Positions 13,748 to 29,974 of a stretch of DNA of 29,974 nt are shown here, in pieces (the first letter of the stretch is position 1; every line of letters begins with the position of its first letter). The notes beneath the pieces were generated by a model. The model was not told the DNA's origin. It did not search any database and saw only the letters and a list, made by a program, of their open reading frames with translations. Both the position numbers and the translations under genes were made by a program. The DNA comes from a virus. Where the stretch lies: positions 1-29,974 of the IMG/VR virus record IMGVR_UViG_3300042543_000417. One strand, 5' to 3'.

Positions 13748-13810
13748 GCGTTTCTCGTTTCGTCGTGGCCGTTGTCATTGACCATAATCGCGGCGGAAAA
13801 CTTAGGTTTG

Positions 13811-13839
13811 ATTATACTGCTCGGCACAGTTTATGTACA
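13811..13839 (-). promoter_or_regulatory. Near-consensus promoter of the ten-gene operon
   Basis: On the minus strand TGTACA (13839-13834), a 17-bp spacer, then a perfect TATAAT (13816-13811). The predicted start is near 13804. The -35 hexamer is the core of the palindrome TATGTACATA (13832-13841). That motif recurs in the intergenic region, so binding there would directly block the promoter. Confidence 0.7.
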
Positions 13840-13974
13840 TATGCAAATGCATGTTCTCGTGCTGCTTTGCACGCATTTCTCGCCTAGTTATTGTACAATC
13901 GACATGGCCCAAAAGCTCGCCCTTGCTCATTCCGTATACCGTTAACCTTAAGGGTGTACACCCAGGCATGTACA
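13832..13974. promoter_or_regulatory. Cluster of TGTACA palindromes, putative operators
   Basis: TATGTACATA (13832-13841), ATTGTACAAT (13890-13899) and GGGTGTACACCC (13952-13963) are perfect palindromes around GTAC, with a further ATGTACA at 13968-13974. TTGGTGTACACCAA, a 14-bp palindrome, lies inside the FmdB gene at 14177-14190. GTAC-centred dyads at irregular spacing between divergent transcription units suggest one dimeric regulator, or recombinase accessory sites. Confidence 0.5.
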
Positions 13975-14006
13975 AAAAGCATGGGAGCAAGGCCGGTTTT
14001 ATAGGT

Positions 14007-14037
14007 AAGTTAACGTACAAAGTTAGTACATTAACTT
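14007..14037. repeat. 31-bp inverted repeat, resolvase-subsite-like
   Basis: AAGTTAACGTAC (14007-14018) and GTACATTAACTT (14026-14037) are inverted 12-mers with one mismatch, separated by 7 bp. Serine resolvase res subsites and invertase hix sites also use imperfect 12-bp inverted half-sites, with overall lengths of about 25-34 bp. It ends 4 bp before the Shine-Dalgarno of the FmdB gene, whose downstream partner is a serine recombinase. An autoregulatory operator is the alternative. Confidence 0.5.
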
Positions 14038-14055
14038 CACGGGAGAAGGGTTTTC

Positions 14056-14235
14056 ATGCCGACTTATGACTATATCTGCCCGAACGGGCATCCCTATTCA
14101 GAGACGCGCTCAATGACCGCTTCTCAGGTCAAAGAGACCTGCCCAAAGCCCGACTGTAACCTACAACTCAGCCGCGTTTGGTGTACACCAACTATCACCT
14201 TCAAAGGGCGCGGCTTCTACTCGACTGGCGGATGA
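14056..14235 (+). CDS. FmdB-type zinc-ribbon protein
   Basis: 59 aa, ATG preceded by GGGAGAAGGG. It reads MPTYDYICPNGHPYSETRSM, then a CPKPDC pair, and ends FKGRGFYSTGG. The opening MPTYDYxC and closing FKGxGFY are hallmarks of the FmdB (CxxC_CXXC_SSSS) regulatory zinc-ribbon family, common in bacteria and in phages. Likely ligands are C8, H12, C29 and C34. The protein presumably binds DNA or a protein partner. Its TGA overlaps the recombinase ATG (ATGA), so the two are co-translated. This suggests it could act as a co-factor or directionality factor for the recombinase, which is inference. Confidence 0.85.
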   Translation: MPTYDYICPNGHPYSETRSMTASQVKETCPKPDCNLQLSRVWCTPTITFKGRGFYSTGG

Positions 14236-14981
14236 CGCACATGGCTGATGATCTGGCGCTTCTCTACGCTCGAGTATCCACGTCCATGCAGGTCGCCGAT
14301 GGCATGTCCCTCGACGCGCAGGAACGAGAGCTCGTTCGCGCCGCCGAACTCGCTGGGTACACGCGATGGGAGCTCATTCGCGAGGAAGGTCGTTCAGGTA
14401 AGTCGATCAGCGGCCGCCCCGCGATTCGAGCAGCCCTTGCCCGACTTGAAGCAGGGGACGCCGCGGCGCTCTTTGTCACGCGCATCGATCGCCTCGCCCG
14501 TTCCACGCGAGACTTTCTGCAGATCGTTGATTCCAGCGAAAAGCACAAATGGCGCTTGGTTCTGCTCGACCTTAACCTGGACACGTCATCCTACAGCTCA
14601 AGATTCGTGGTCACGATCATGAGCGCCCTTGCTGAGATGGAACGCGCCATCATCGCGGAACGCCAGAAGGACGTGCACAAGGAACGCCGTGAACGCGGGC
14701 AGCGCTGGGGTATTGACCTCGGCCCACAGCCAATGGTGCCCGTCACGGTTCGCGAGCGTATTCGCCGTGAACGCGAGGCAGGGATGAGCTACCTGCAGAT
14801 CGCGAAGCAACTCAACGCCGACGGAGTGCCAACTGCTCAAGGATCGAGCACATGGCACCCGTCAACGGTGCGTAAGATGTACATGTCGATGCTTCGCGAA
14901 GAGACAGCAGCAAACAACGACCAGCTAGCCCCGCTGCAAGATCTTGCAGACGAACTAGGGATTGATCTAAATGAGCTGTAG
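14232..14981 (+). CDS. Small serine recombinase (resolvase/invertase type)
   Basis: 249 aa from the ATG at 14232, which overlaps the FmdB stop; an ATG at 14241 is possible. The catalytic domain shows LYARVSTSMQ with R14 and nucleophile S16, GRSGKSISGRPAIRAAL (53-69) and FVTRIDRLARSTRDF (81-95) with the conserved DRLAR arginines. FVVTIMSALAEMERAIIAER then forms the long helix E. The C-terminal part has SYLQIAKQLNADGVPTAQG followed by WHPSTVRKM, the DNA-binding recombinase motif. It lacks the zinc ribbon and coiled coil of large serine integrases (usually over 450 aa). It may resolve, invert or integrate DNA. The inverted repeat at 14007-14037 is a candidate site. Confidence 0.9.
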   Translation: MTHMADDLALLYARVSTSMQVADGMSLDAQERELVRAAELAGYTRWELIREEGRSGKSISGRPAIRAALARLEAGDAAALFVTRIDRLARSTRDFLQIVDSSEKHKWRLVLLDLNLDTSSYSSRFVVTIMSALAEMERAIIAERQKDVHKERRERGQRWGIDLGPQPMVPVTVRERIRREREAGMSYLQIAKQLNADGVPTAQGSSTWHPSTVRKMYMSMLREETAANNDQLAPLQDLADELGIDLNEL

Positions 14982-15638: not shown

Positions 15639-18254
15639 TCACCGCGCAAAGCGCGTTGCCATTCCCCAGTCAACGTCGCCGCTTGACACCGCGCGTGGAA
15701 GCAACGACATGTTGCGAATCTCCGCGCGCGAGCCTAGCCCGTTAACTTCCATACCACGGTCTGCCATCTTGCGTTGGAACGCAATTTGTGTCATCGGACG
15801 CTCCCCTCGTTCTTCGCTCCACACTCGATACACGGCGTAGAGCGACTTAATAGGAATCGCGCCGCCCTCGGCTTCCTTAGTTTCTTCGCTAAGAAAGATG
15901 CCAATACGGTCCTCGTTCTTACGATAGATATCTGCCGCGTCGCTCACCGCGGTGCACCAGCCCAGCGCGTCGCGCGCACTCGAGCCGAGAAGCTTAATCG
16001 CGCCCTCGACCGCCCACGACAGCACAGCAGGCAGTGCGCCTTCGGGATCGAAGATGTACGACTTCAACTCAGGGTCAGGGTTTTCTGGCACATTTGTCAA
16101 TGGCACCGGGCGAATACGACGCCACATCGCGTCGTCCGAAATGATCGGACGGTGGTTAGTCGTTACCCAGAGCTTAGCGCGCGACTGAAACGTAAACGGC
16201 TTTTCACCTGGCGAACGCGCAGAGATTTCACTCGAGCCCGTAAGTTTCTTCACGCTGTTCTCCTTCATGCGCTCAGACTCGGGAAGCTCGTCGACCCAAA
16301 CCAAGCGGCGCCCGCGAAGCTCGGCCCAGTGATACAGATCACTGCCATGCGCCTGACCATCGCCCTGAGCAAGAATACTTGAATCAAGCGGCCACGCATA
16401 TTGCTGCGTGCCCAGGCACTTCACCAGCGCCTCAACGAGAGTATTTTTACCAGAGCCAGGAGGGCCGTAGACAAGAAACATGATGTCGTGTTTACGCGAA
16501 CCAGTCAGCGAATAGCCGGCGGCTCGCTGCAACCATTCTTGAAGTTCCTTGTCTCCGTTTGTCGCGAAGTCGATGAACTGGTCCCAACGCACGTTTCGCA
16601 TGCCCGGCGTGTAAGCAACCGGCGCCCGCCGCGTGATGTAAAGATCGGGTCGACCCTTGAGCAGCTCGCCTGAGCGAAGATCGATAACGCCGTTCGCGAC
16701 GCCGAGAAGATTTTCATCAGCATCCCAGTTCTCAACGCCGACGAGTATTCTCGGGTCGGACGTCGCGCTTTCGATTGCTCCGGCGATACGCGAATTTGAC
16801 TTTGACTGCGACGCCCAGCGAATAACTTCGCCTTGCTTCTCTGTGTCATCGTAGTGTACTACTTCGCTGGCAATGATCGGCGCGAGTTTCTTGGCAAGCT
16901 CACGCATTTCCAGATCTTCCACGTCAGGCTTCCAATACGCGCCATCCCAGTGGAACCAACCAAGACCCGGAGTATATCGAACCGCGGGCCCGAATGCGTC
17001 AACAATCCGTCGACCATTGCCAGTGTCAGTTAGCGTGCGCTTTCCAGGCTCTCCGCCTTCGTCTTCGCGTAGCGCATCGACGTCCTTTGGCACGTCGATG
17101 TTCATAAGATTTGCAGCCTCGGCGACAGAGTCGCCGTCCTCTATAGATGACGTAATTGCGCCGGCTATTGTTCCAGGCAGAGGTTGAACAACTCCAAGCA
17201 CTGGGCTAGGCGACGCCGCTCTCTTGCGAGACACTGGAACTGTTCTAGACTCATCCTGAGAGCGCTGCGCCCACTCTTGCAATCCTGGCCAGAGCTTCTC
17301 TGTCTTCGGATTGTCAATAACAAACTGAATCGCGCGGCGGACATGCATAAGCAAACCGCCCGCGCCTTCAAGCGGGAGCGGCGGGCGCACCTTCTCGGCG
17401 TTGAAGCGAATCATCATCGTCTCAACCGCAAGTCGACCAGCCTCGGTGTTGACAGGGAATTTGTTCGCAAGCGCGCATGTCATGGAGTAGATATCGACAG
17501 CACGCGAACCCTCGTCAATGCCTTCTTCGAGCAAGCGATCGACGTCAATGCGCTCTCCGCCAAAGTCAAGTGAATCAATCCAACCCCAGTCGCCTTCGCC
17601 CATTCCAGTGCCGGATGCTGACGAGCGCGCGCGCTTGCGCAAAGCCGAGAGCAGTTCTTCTGGCGCCTGTGCGATTTCGATTTCCCACGGAGCCTTACCT
17701 TCGACCCACTCATAGCAGTTGCCAGAGAAATGACGAGACGGCGCAATGAGCACGTAGCCGTTGTGCTTGATGTCGATTCCACCAAGCCCAGCCTTCTTCA
17801 GATTTCCGACCAGTGACTCAGACTCATCGCAGCGATAGAACAAGTGCCGCCCGCGCATCGTACGGCCACCGACAGAGTACTCGCCGGTGATCGCTTCGAC
17901 GGTAGCAGGCAGCGCGCCTTCAACAAGTTGCTCGAACTTCTCGAATGAGTCTGGCCCGCCCGAACGCGGGTCGATGTCGATGACGAAAAAGCCGGAAGGG
18001 CGGCAGTACACGCCGACGTTGGACTGCGGGTCAGAGGTGTACCACTGCGCGATCTGCTCGGCGTCAGTTGTCGCCTGTACGTTCCACTCGCTGATGCGCG
18101 GATGCTTGCCCACGTCTTTTGGCTCTGCGTGCGCGCCGCCGCATGTGCACCGCCCTCCGACAATTCCATAGCACGGCAGAATATGCCAGCCCTGGCTGGC
18201 GTACCACTGTGCCGCTGGCCCAAGTCGGCCGTCGGCCGCGTCCCAGGCGCTCAT
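15639..18254 (-). CDS. PrimPol / SF3 primase-helicase (D5/P4-like)
   Basis: 871 aa. It should make primers and unwind DNA at the phage fork. The N-terminal PrimPol domain has FFVIDIDPRSGG with catalytic Asp at about 93 and 95, GRHLFYR (135-141) and DIKHNGYVLIAPSRH (161-175). A middle linker is Ser/Pro-rich. The D5-type region starts near DENLLGVANGVIDLRSGELL (513-532). The SF3 ATPase has Walker A YGPPGSGKNT (596-605), Walker B LVWVDELPE (651-659), sensor WVTTNHRP (696-703) and the arginine motif WRRIRPVP (711-718). The ATG overlaps the stop of the small HTH gene upstream. Length and order fit phage/plasmid primases of the P4 type. Confidence 0.93.
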   Translation of the reverse strand: MSAWDAADGRLGPAAQWYASQGWHILPCYGIVGGRCTCGGAHAEPKDVGKHPRISEWNVQATTDAEQIAQWYTSDPQSNVGVYCRPSGFFVIDIDPRSGGPDSFEKFEQLVEGALPATVEAITGEYSVGGRTMRGRHLFYRCDESESLVGNLKKAGLGGIDIKHNGYVLIAPSRHFSGNCYEWVEGKAPWEIEIAQAPEELLSALRKRARSSASGTGMGEGDWGWIDSLDFGGERIDVDRLLEEGIDEGSRAVDIYSMTCALANKFPVNTEAGRLAVETMMIRFNAEKVRPPLPLEGAGGLLMHVRRAIQFVIDNPKTEKLWPGLQEWAQRSQDESRTVPVSRKRAASPSPVLGVVQPLPGTIAGAITSSIEDGDSVAEAANLMNIDVPKDVDALREDEGGEPGKRTLTDTGNGRRIVDAFGPAVRYTPGLGWFHWDGAYWKPDVEDLEMRELAKKLAPIIASEVVHYDDTEKQGEVIRWASQSKSNSRIAGAIESATSDPRILVGVENWDADENLLGVANGVIDLRSGELLKGRPDLYITRRAPVAYTPGMRNVRWDQFIDFATNGDKELQEWLQRAAGYSLTGSRKHDIMFLVYGPPGSGKNTLVEALVKCLGTQQYAWPLDSSILAQGDGQAHGSDLYHWAELRGRRLVWVDELPESERMKENSVKKLTGSSEISARSPGEKPFTFQSRAKLWVTTNHRPIISDDAMWRRIRPVPLTNVPENPDPELKSYIFDPEGALPAVLSWAVEGAIKLLGSSARDALGWCTAVSDAADIYRKNEDRIGIFLSEETKEAEGGAIPIKSLYAVYRVWSEERGERPMTQIAFQRKMADRGMEVNGLGSRAEIRNMSLLPRAVSSGDVDWGMATRFAR

Positions 18255-18475
18255 CGAGCAGAACCACTTGCACTAGCAAGTTGATCACTTGTGTGCAGTG
18301 ACATAAACCAGTCTTGCGCATCCTCCGGAAGTATGTAGACTCGTTCTCTGCCTGTCTCTGTAATAGTGCGCACGGCTGCCAAGTCGCCAGACTCAACGGC
18401 TCGAGCGACGGCTCGAGCTGGCAGGCCGTACATCATGGCCACACCGCGGATACTTAAGCGGCGTACGTTTTGCAT
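18251..18475 (-). CDS. Small HTH DNA-binding protein (excisionase/MerR-like)
   Basis: 74 aa, ATG with AGGGG 7 nt upstream. It reads MQNVRRLSIRGVAMMYGLPA, then ARAVARAVESGDLAAVRT and RVYILPEDAQDWF. The layout 'turn-on-a-helix, recognition helix, ESGDL, basic beta-hairpin, ILPEDAQDW' is the small winged HTH of excisionase/HTH_17 proteins. It is co-transcribed with the primase-helicase (ATGA overlap). It could regulate replication, load the primase at an origin in the adjacent non-coding region, or act as a directionality factor for the serine recombinase 3.5 kb away. The fold call is fairly sure; the role is not. Confidence 0.75.
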   Translation of the reverse strand: MQNVRRLSIRGVAMMYGLPARAVARAVESGDLAAVRTITETGRERVYILPEDAQDWFMSLHTSDQLASASGSAR

Positions 18476-21401: not shown

Positions 21402-25403
<4,002 letters not shown>

Positions 25404-25413
25404 GCGAGCAGAC

Positions 25414-27786
<2,373 letters not shown>

Positions 27787-27794
27787 GGTGATTA

Positions 27795-28673
27795 ATGCCT
27801 ATCATGGGCGCTCTGTCCAGCTCATCGGCTCAAGGGTTTGGCAGAAACAAAGCCGCCGGCGGCCCTTTCGCATCTGGTGGAGTTGTCGCGACGGCGGGTG
27901 GATATAGGTACCACACTTTTCTAAACCCTAGCGGTACGCTCACTGTCACATCAGGCGGGCCGATGGAAGCTTTGATTATTGCTGGCGGTGGAGGCGGAGG
28001 CACGCACACAGGGGGAGGAGGCGGAGCAGGCGGGGTACTTTTTGTCAGCCAATCTGTACCATCCGGTACGTATGCAGTGACGGTTGGCAACGGCGGGGCG
28101 GGGGCGCCAGCTCTTTCGGGCGGCACGACAGCAGGGGCTCAAGGCGGCTCTTCAACATTTAATTCCAACACGGCAATAGGCGGAGGCGGCGGCGCTTCTC
28201 TTAGCGCCGCTGGAACTTCCGGCGGCTCTGGCGGCGGCGGCTCGAGAGGAAGCGGATACGCAGGTACGGCTGGGCAGGGAAACCGCGGAGGAAATGTTGG
28301 AGGGGTAATCGGTGGTGGCGGCGGCGGTGCCGGCGCTGCAGGAACAGATACTTCTACTCCCGGCCCGAGCAACGGCGGCATAGGGACAAATCTGTACTCC
28401 GCTTGGGCAGCCGCGACATCAACAGGAGTATCTGGTTACTTTGCCGGCGGTGGCGGAGGGGGCGGCGAACAGTCCGCCGGCGGGTTTTACTCAAATAGTG
28501 GCACCGGTGGGCTAGGAGGCGGAGGAAACGGAGGGCCTATCAACCCGTCCGGAGCTGGATTGCCGGGTGCCGCGAACACGGGCGGCGGCGGGGGCGCCGG
28601 CTGCGTCTACCCAGGGACAAACGTAGGAGGCGCGGGCGGGTCCGGCATTGTGATTATTCGCTACTTGATCTAA
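27795..28673 (+). CDS. Glycine-rich tail tip adhesin-like protein
   Basis: 292 aa, ATG preceded by GAGGTG. After a short head (MPIMGALSSSSAQGFGRNKA) and the beta segment GYRYHTFLNPSGTLTVTSGG, the protein is dominated by runs such as GGGGGGTHTGGGGGAGG and ends SGIVIIRYLI. This is the layout of phage glycine-rich proteins. The best known relative in architecture is the S16-type gp38 adhesin, where polyglycine-II helices pack into a sandwich and loops between them bind the receptor. The GIVIIRY ending is common in such proteins. It lies between fibres 2 and 3, so it probably caps one of them. A link with a particular receptor cannot be read. Confidence 0.8.
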   Translation: MPIMGALSSSSAQGFGRNKAAGGPFASGGVVATAGGYRYHTFLNPSGTLTVTSGGPMEALIIAGGGGGGTHTGGGGGAGGVLFVSQSVPSGTYAVTVGNGGAGAPALSGGTTAGAQGGSSTFNSNTAIGGGGGASLSAAGTSGGSGGGGSRGSGYAGTAGQGNRGGNVGGVIGGGGGGAGAAGTDTSTPGPSNGGIGTNLYSAWAAATSTGVSGYFAGGGGGGGEQSAGGFYSNSGTGGLGGGGNGGPINPSGAGLPGAANTGGGGGAGCVYPGTNVGGAGGSGIVIIRYLI

Positions 28674-28727
28674 AAGACGGGATCTCTCTCGACAAGAAGG
28701 ACCCAGCTCGGTAGCAGTAAAGATTGA

Positions 28728-29974
<1,247 letters not shown>

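Follow-up and report, generated by a model that had tools for sequence, protein, structure and literature searches.

A small serine recombinase of freshwater phages and its conserved, res-like candidate site

Which DNA site does the serine recombinase encoded near the primase of large freshwater phages act on, and to what end? The question is raised by a 29,974-bp IMG/VR phage fragment (record IMGVR_UViG_3300042543_000417), which was analysed over its full length and is referred to here as the window. Among the relatives of the window phage are large freshwater phages, for instance DSL-LC01, a metagenome-assembled genome of 129 kb with a predicted actinobacterial host and the sole record treated as complete in our analysis. 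A 277-bp AT-rich intergenic region separates small leftward genes, which end near position 13778, from a gene for an FmdB-type zinc-ribbon protein; the recombinase gene, two small genes and a convergent primase/helicase gene follow (Table 1). A viral scan with the recombinase returned 80 loci at 59–74% identity, plus the annotated phage DSL-LC01 (65%), and in nearly all of these about 80 loci the recombinase lies near the primase. A first-pass annotation of the locus had suggested a compact, undescribed recombination module made up of a 31-bp inverted repeat, the FmdB protein and the recombinase. Our results retain a candidate site beside a small serine recombinase, but FmdB is probably only a passenger and the repeat is not the crossover site.

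Several features of the surroundings are recorded here. A gene overlapping the primase start (18251–18475, minus strand) encodes a 74-aa HTH protein with weak likeness to excisionases or recombination directionality factors (phrog_66, E 0.0086); among the fetched loci, 21 keep it, the window included, with 51–74% identity in the others. It may act as a directionality factor or else in regulating replication. Positions 21423–29974 of the plus strand hold a series of collagen-like fibre genes with Gly-X-Thr repeats, the last of which runs off the record end. The DSL-LC01 genome lacks, over its whole length, ten 6-bp palindromes whose centres are made of A/T only, including GAATTC, CTTAAG, GTTAAC, GATATC and CATATG, at 3–35 expected occurrences each, which suggests restriction avoidance; GTTAAC is not avoided in the window (11 observed versus 4.7 expected).

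Table 1. Positions of the recombinase locus features in the window
Feature	Position	Strand	Evidence or remark
Site I, 28-bp palindrome CGTATACCGTTAA-CC-TTAAGGGTGTACA, proposed crossover site	13933–13960	+	Recurs upstream of family recombinases
TGTACA, accessory half-site-like word	13969–13974		Spacing of +9 from site I, shared by 22 of the 43 distinct sites
31-bp inverted repeat, proposed accessory site II or promoter-proximal element	14007–14037		Full repeat kept only in L003/L112
CGTACAAAGTTAGTACATTA, 11-bp direct repeat of GTACA	14014–14033	+	Exact match to YGTACN7RTACMTTA
FmdB/Zn_ribbon_8 zinc-ribbon protein, 59 aa, probable passenger	14056–14235	+	Pfam 4.4e-06; TIGR02605 3.4e-07
Serine recombinase, 249 aa	14232–14981	+	PF00239 catalytic domain and short HTH matching residues 8–48 of PF07508
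DNA primase/helicase	15639–18254	-	Conserved convergent neighbour of the recombinase

The protein combines a catalytic domain, helix E and one small C-terminal HTH within the range of about 180–250 aa that characterizes small serine recombinases. PF00239 matches residues 10–157, and the short HTH, a partial PF07508 covering only 41 of its 102 model positions, occupies residues 175–216 with nothing matched C-terminal to it. An AlphaFold model displays a long helix at 123–154 and helices thereafter, with pLDDT values of 54–67 over about 121–170. The equivalents of gamma-delta R8, S10, R45, D67, R68, R71, E124 and R125 are invariant in 52 distinct relatives, so that the catalytic residues of serine recombinases are in place throughout. 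The catalytic domain is closest to that of large serine integrases (TP901-1, 5e-15) and not to Sin or Tn3, the match to Sin having E values of 5e-5 to 4e-4. Assignment to the large serine recombinases was nevertheless rejected, since the protein is without a complete recombinase domain, zinc-ribbon and coiled-coil; with a family length range of 210–250 aa, the first-pass judgement that it is too short for a large serine integrase holds. The window recombinase carries a C-terminal extension (about residues 217–249; 14880–14981) that is absent from most relatives. A search of 84,980 prokaryote species genomes gave no relative above 43% identity, and prophages in sequenced bacteria, which offered only distant ones, were discarded as a source of close relatives. 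In these freshwater phages, 'recombinase family protein' is the sole annotation that the protein has had so far.

The inverted repeat described earlier, AAGTTAACGTAC-AAAGTTA-GTACATTAACTT, is present as claimed, with 12-bp arms, one mismatch and a 7-bp spacer. Alone it is not above chance in 30 kb: with 12-bp arms, at most one mismatch and a spacer of 0–20, the window holds 2 comparable repeats versus 1.9 expected in shuffled 30 kb. Within its own 277-bp intergenic region the repeat has a P of about 0.012, and GTACA-type words are enriched there (5 versus 0.3 expected; 0 of 3000 shuffles). Throughout IMG/VR, the close relative L003/L112 alone has the full repeat pattern next to a recombinase of this kind; the remaining 4 matches belong to loci without one. 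On the basis of its odd-length 12-7-12 geometry and its retention only in L003, we rejected the repeat as the crossover site. The first-pass annotation had proposed a search for a second copy; the repeat occurs once in the record, itself a 29,974-bp fragment, and a resolvase is compatible with this absence, since a single site per genome suffices for multimer resolution.

Comparison of the upstream regions of relatives yielded a 28-bp palindrome instead, YGTANANNNTTAR-NN-YTAANNNTNTACR, here termed site I, in which 13-bp arms with outer GTA and inner TTAA flank a free central dinucleotide (13946–13947 in the window). It lies 47 bp upstream of the 31-bp repeat and scores 36.3 bits, with 0.8 bits for the next best position in the window; the weight matrix was seeded with palindromes located near recombinases. 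DSL-LC01 likewise contains exactly one site I (27 bits versus 10 for the next best). We found 43 distinct sites, related by descent and not phylogenetically independent, and they have the make-up of a Sin-type site I, namely an inverted repeat of about 26–28 bp with a candidate 2-nt overlap. Resolvase-like subsites upstream of the gene pair, as anticipated by the first-pass annotation, thus do exist, but the candidate for crossover is the 28-bp palindrome and not the 31-bp repeat. In the literature that could be searched, we found no description of this site.

The link between site and enzyme is strict. All of IMG/VR was scanned with the composite pattern TTAAYNTTAAN5TACN9TGTACA, and all 29 loci retrieved are on contigs that encode a family recombinase; the gene is in the fetched piece for 28 of them, and the remaining locus, L105, is on the contig of L048, where the recombinase lies. 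The reversed control pattern gave 25 loci, none with a recombinase or primase. As 29 and 25 are alike, the proof lies in the association with the recombinase and not in the raw match numbers. Across 23 records, the palindrome pattern with 2 mismatches allowed detected 23 sites and its reversed control none, whereas three incomplete records had no site I at up to 3 mismatches. Palindromic covariation of the arms is modest overall (reached by 17 of 2000 shuffles) and significant only at positions 5 and 7 and, weakly, 8.

A second element, built on the word GTACA from which site orientation was assigned, accompanies site I. Its distance from the palindrome is 9–10 bp in 23 of the 43 distinct sites, 18–22 bp in 16 and 30–33 bp in 4, in steps of about one helical turn. 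In AT-rich phages the element reads TGTACAAAAGTGATACATTATTATATAAC, that is GTACA-N6-RTACATTA, an 11-bp direct repeat; GC-richer relatives have only a single TGTACA at +9, and site II is therefore not uniform. A head-to-tail repeat, as in the accessory site of a Sin-type res, is seen in the AT-rich phages and in the window. A second full scan, with the downstream motif, produced 21 matches, every one with a site I (19–37 bits) 9 or 18–22 bp upstream. The site II-like consensus YGTACN7RTACMTTA has 10 matches at zero mismatches in the 23 records; nine come immediately after a 28-bp site. The remaining one is the window copy inside the 31-bp repeat, which at 54 bp from site I is outside the usual spacings. 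As all of these matches belong to sites, we rejected the notion that the element is a general phage promoter. We propose that the first-pass annotation saw the outer, putatively accessory part of a composite site of 105 bp (13933–14037). Two further TGTACA words occur upstream of site I (13834–13839 and 13892–13897), the second of which is kept in L003; possibly they are further accessory half-sites on the other side.

The centre of site I behaves differently from its arms. With 0.06 and 0.20 bits, the two central positions have the lowest information content of all 28 (43 distinct sites), and none of the 43 centres is palindromic (AT, TA, GC or CG). The window has CC and L003 has CA, despite primases that are 93% identical. 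Six phages contain a second copy of the composite site (G004, 50636; G007, 23153; G019, 103; G012, 7968; G022, 112478; G023, 7763), which lies 14–32 kb away from the copy linked to the recombinase and seems to head a different operon. Near and far centres never match in these six (GT/TT, TC/GT, TC/GT, TC/AG, AG/GA and GA/AC). The far site of G012 (L119, about 1–1468) is followed by an apparent tRNA gene in the same orientation, as judged by eye. In several phages the sole detected site is 13–33 kb away from the recombinase, and only the far copy was found in G001, G002, G003, G010, G017 and G028–G030. In large serine integrases, a non-palindromic central dinucleotide sets the choice of partner. 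A centre that is free between relatives, never palindromic and never shared within a genome is what recombination between a site and the same site on a sister genome would produce; it agrees poorly with a host attB of fixed sequence and with an inversion switch.

An inversion switch, in which the two sites of one phage would invert the intervening 14–20 kb including collagen-like fibre genes, has in its favour that five of the six two-site phages (G004, G007, G012, G019 and G023) have outward-facing inverted sites with fibre genes between them. Hin- and Gin-type invertible segments are bounded by two inverted sites of identical centre; here the centres are mismatched whichever way they are aligned, so that strand exchange would be blocked, and only one site was detected in several phages. 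We rejected inversion on these mismatched dinucleotides and hold it to be very improbable. The module of FmdB and recombinase envisaged by the first-pass annotation, with FmdB as accessory factor, is scarcely credible. The gene pair itself was correctly described: the two frames overlap by ATGA, which makes translational coupling plausible, and the spacing is short in L003 as well. FmdB scores just below the curated cut-offs (TIGR02605, 30.2 bits versus 31.3; PF09723, 27 versus 34.4). However, only two of the roughly 80 loci, the window and L003, have the FmdB gene next to that of the recombinase; elsewhere the place between site and recombinase is taken by a two-gene dioxygenase-like set, a 335-aa protein, a kinase, a 114-aa protein or others (named by eye), or by no gene. 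The FmdB homologues of relatives (35–49% identity) are unlinked and in several cases reside beside redoxin and ribonucleotide reductase genes. FmdB was accordingly rejected as a partner of the recombinase, and the gene distribution suggests a probable exchangeable passenger inserted between site and recombinase.

Two further explanations concern the site itself. The palindrome and GTACA might serve only as operator or promoter, to which the recombinase or some other regulator of the phage binds with no recombination at that place. The location of the sites at operon starts would agree with this, as would the far sites that precede other operons and, in AT-rich phages, the continuation of the GTACA element into TATTATATAAC just before the gene. 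We nonetheless consider regulation alone rather unlikely, given the active site invariant in 52 proteins, the length of 28 bp, with GTA towards the outer ends and TTAA on the inside, and a centre that is free yet never palindromic, as expected of an overlap and not of an operator. Moreover, the ATG of L098 is about 25 bp after TTGTACA, too close for a promoter with TTGTACA as its -35 box. Alternatively, the site could be the attP of a small serine integrase that recombines with a host attB. The single site beside the recombinase in several phages, the integrase-like catalytic domain and the small excisionase-like HTH gene beside the primase are compatible with this, and the predictor applied in PMC10611076 classes DSL-LC01 as lysogenic. 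Yet a fixed attB would demand a matching overlap, and the dinucleotide falls into many classes and varies even between close relatives; no integrated copies were seen, the 84,980 prokaryote species genomes holding no relative above the identity given, and the C-terminal domains of large serine recombinases are lacking. Integration at an attB is therefore distinctly unlikely.

Most likely, this large family of freshwater actinobacterial phages pairs a small recombinase with a conserved, previously unannotated two-part site in a system that splits fused genomes. For the window, we judge it probable that the phage small serine recombinase has a res-like site of its own, at which it would resolve dimers or concatemers or circularize redundant ends. 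Support at the level of sequence comes from the palindromic site I, the GTACA element at helical-turn spacings, the strict recombinase association, the invariant active site and the free, never-palindromic centre. A recombinase dimer would bind site I and cleave at the central dinucleotide, leaving 2-nt overhangs; activation would require additional subunits, bound to the GTACA accessory element, to assist the synapsis of two complete sites. Since strand exchange demands the same central dinucleotide in both partners, recombination of a site would be confined to an identical copy, present on a fused genome or on a replicated one, and hence the system would resolve dimers or concatemers of a circular genome, or circularize redundant ends, in a manner comparable to Cre-lox in P1. 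Overlap of the site with the operon promoter may allow autoregulation. A bolder version, which we offer tentatively and with some doubt, is a phage analogue of Cre-lox derived from a shortened integrase-type serine recombinase, in which the non-palindromic centre would confine each site to its own copy. One phage could then have two mutually silent res sites that are served by a single enzyme and also drive two operons, coupling monomerization to transcription.

The recombinase conserved beside the primase of these widespread large freshwater phages thereby acquires a concrete candidate target. If the model is true, it bears on genome monomer upkeep and possible plasmid persistence of these phages. 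The natural series of site variants, differing in spacing and overlap, lends itself to studying the accessory-site activation of a serine recombinase, and the system is a possible new orthogonal recombination tool.

Among known systems, Sin with its 86-bp res from Staphylococcus aureus plasmids and the beta recombinase resemble the phage system in having a small serine recombinase and an inverted site I; their one accessory site with head-to-tail motifs has a putative counterpart in the AT-rich phages and the window. In Sin res, synapsis of the head-to-tail site II activates the inverted site I, and the system resolves dimers (PMC2428073). The phage version differs in that it is phage-borne, its catalytic domain is closer to integrases, its 28-bp site I has non-palindromic centres and its accessory spacing varies in helical steps. 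Site I of Tn3 and gamma-delta is 28 bp long, with outer TGT and an AT-rich inner part. The small serine recombinase with C-terminal HTH, the 28-bp site I and the 105-bp span of the phage site recall these resolvases, whereas Tn3 res comprises three dimer sites over 114 bp (PMC9943657), no transposon is present at the phage locus, and helix E and the HTH region differ. Large serine integrases (TP901-1, Bxb1 and SPbeta SprA) have the closest catalytic domain; in contrast to them, the phage protein is without C-terminal zinc-ribbon and coiled-coil, no attB-like partner was found, and putative accessory subsites are present. With P1 Cre-lox the system shares a phage-encoded site-specific recombinase that probably serves genome monomer upkeep, although Cre is a tyrosine recombinase. 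Small serine recombinases, probably likewise for monomer upkeep, are encoded by the phage-plasmids phiCD38-2 and D6 and by Bacillus plasmid prophages (PMC8026635), for which the accessible text of that study describes genes and not a res site. As far as sequence comparison can tell, the system is thus a phage variant of resolvase/res, new as a variant within a group whose small serine recombinases are already known from phage-plasmids.
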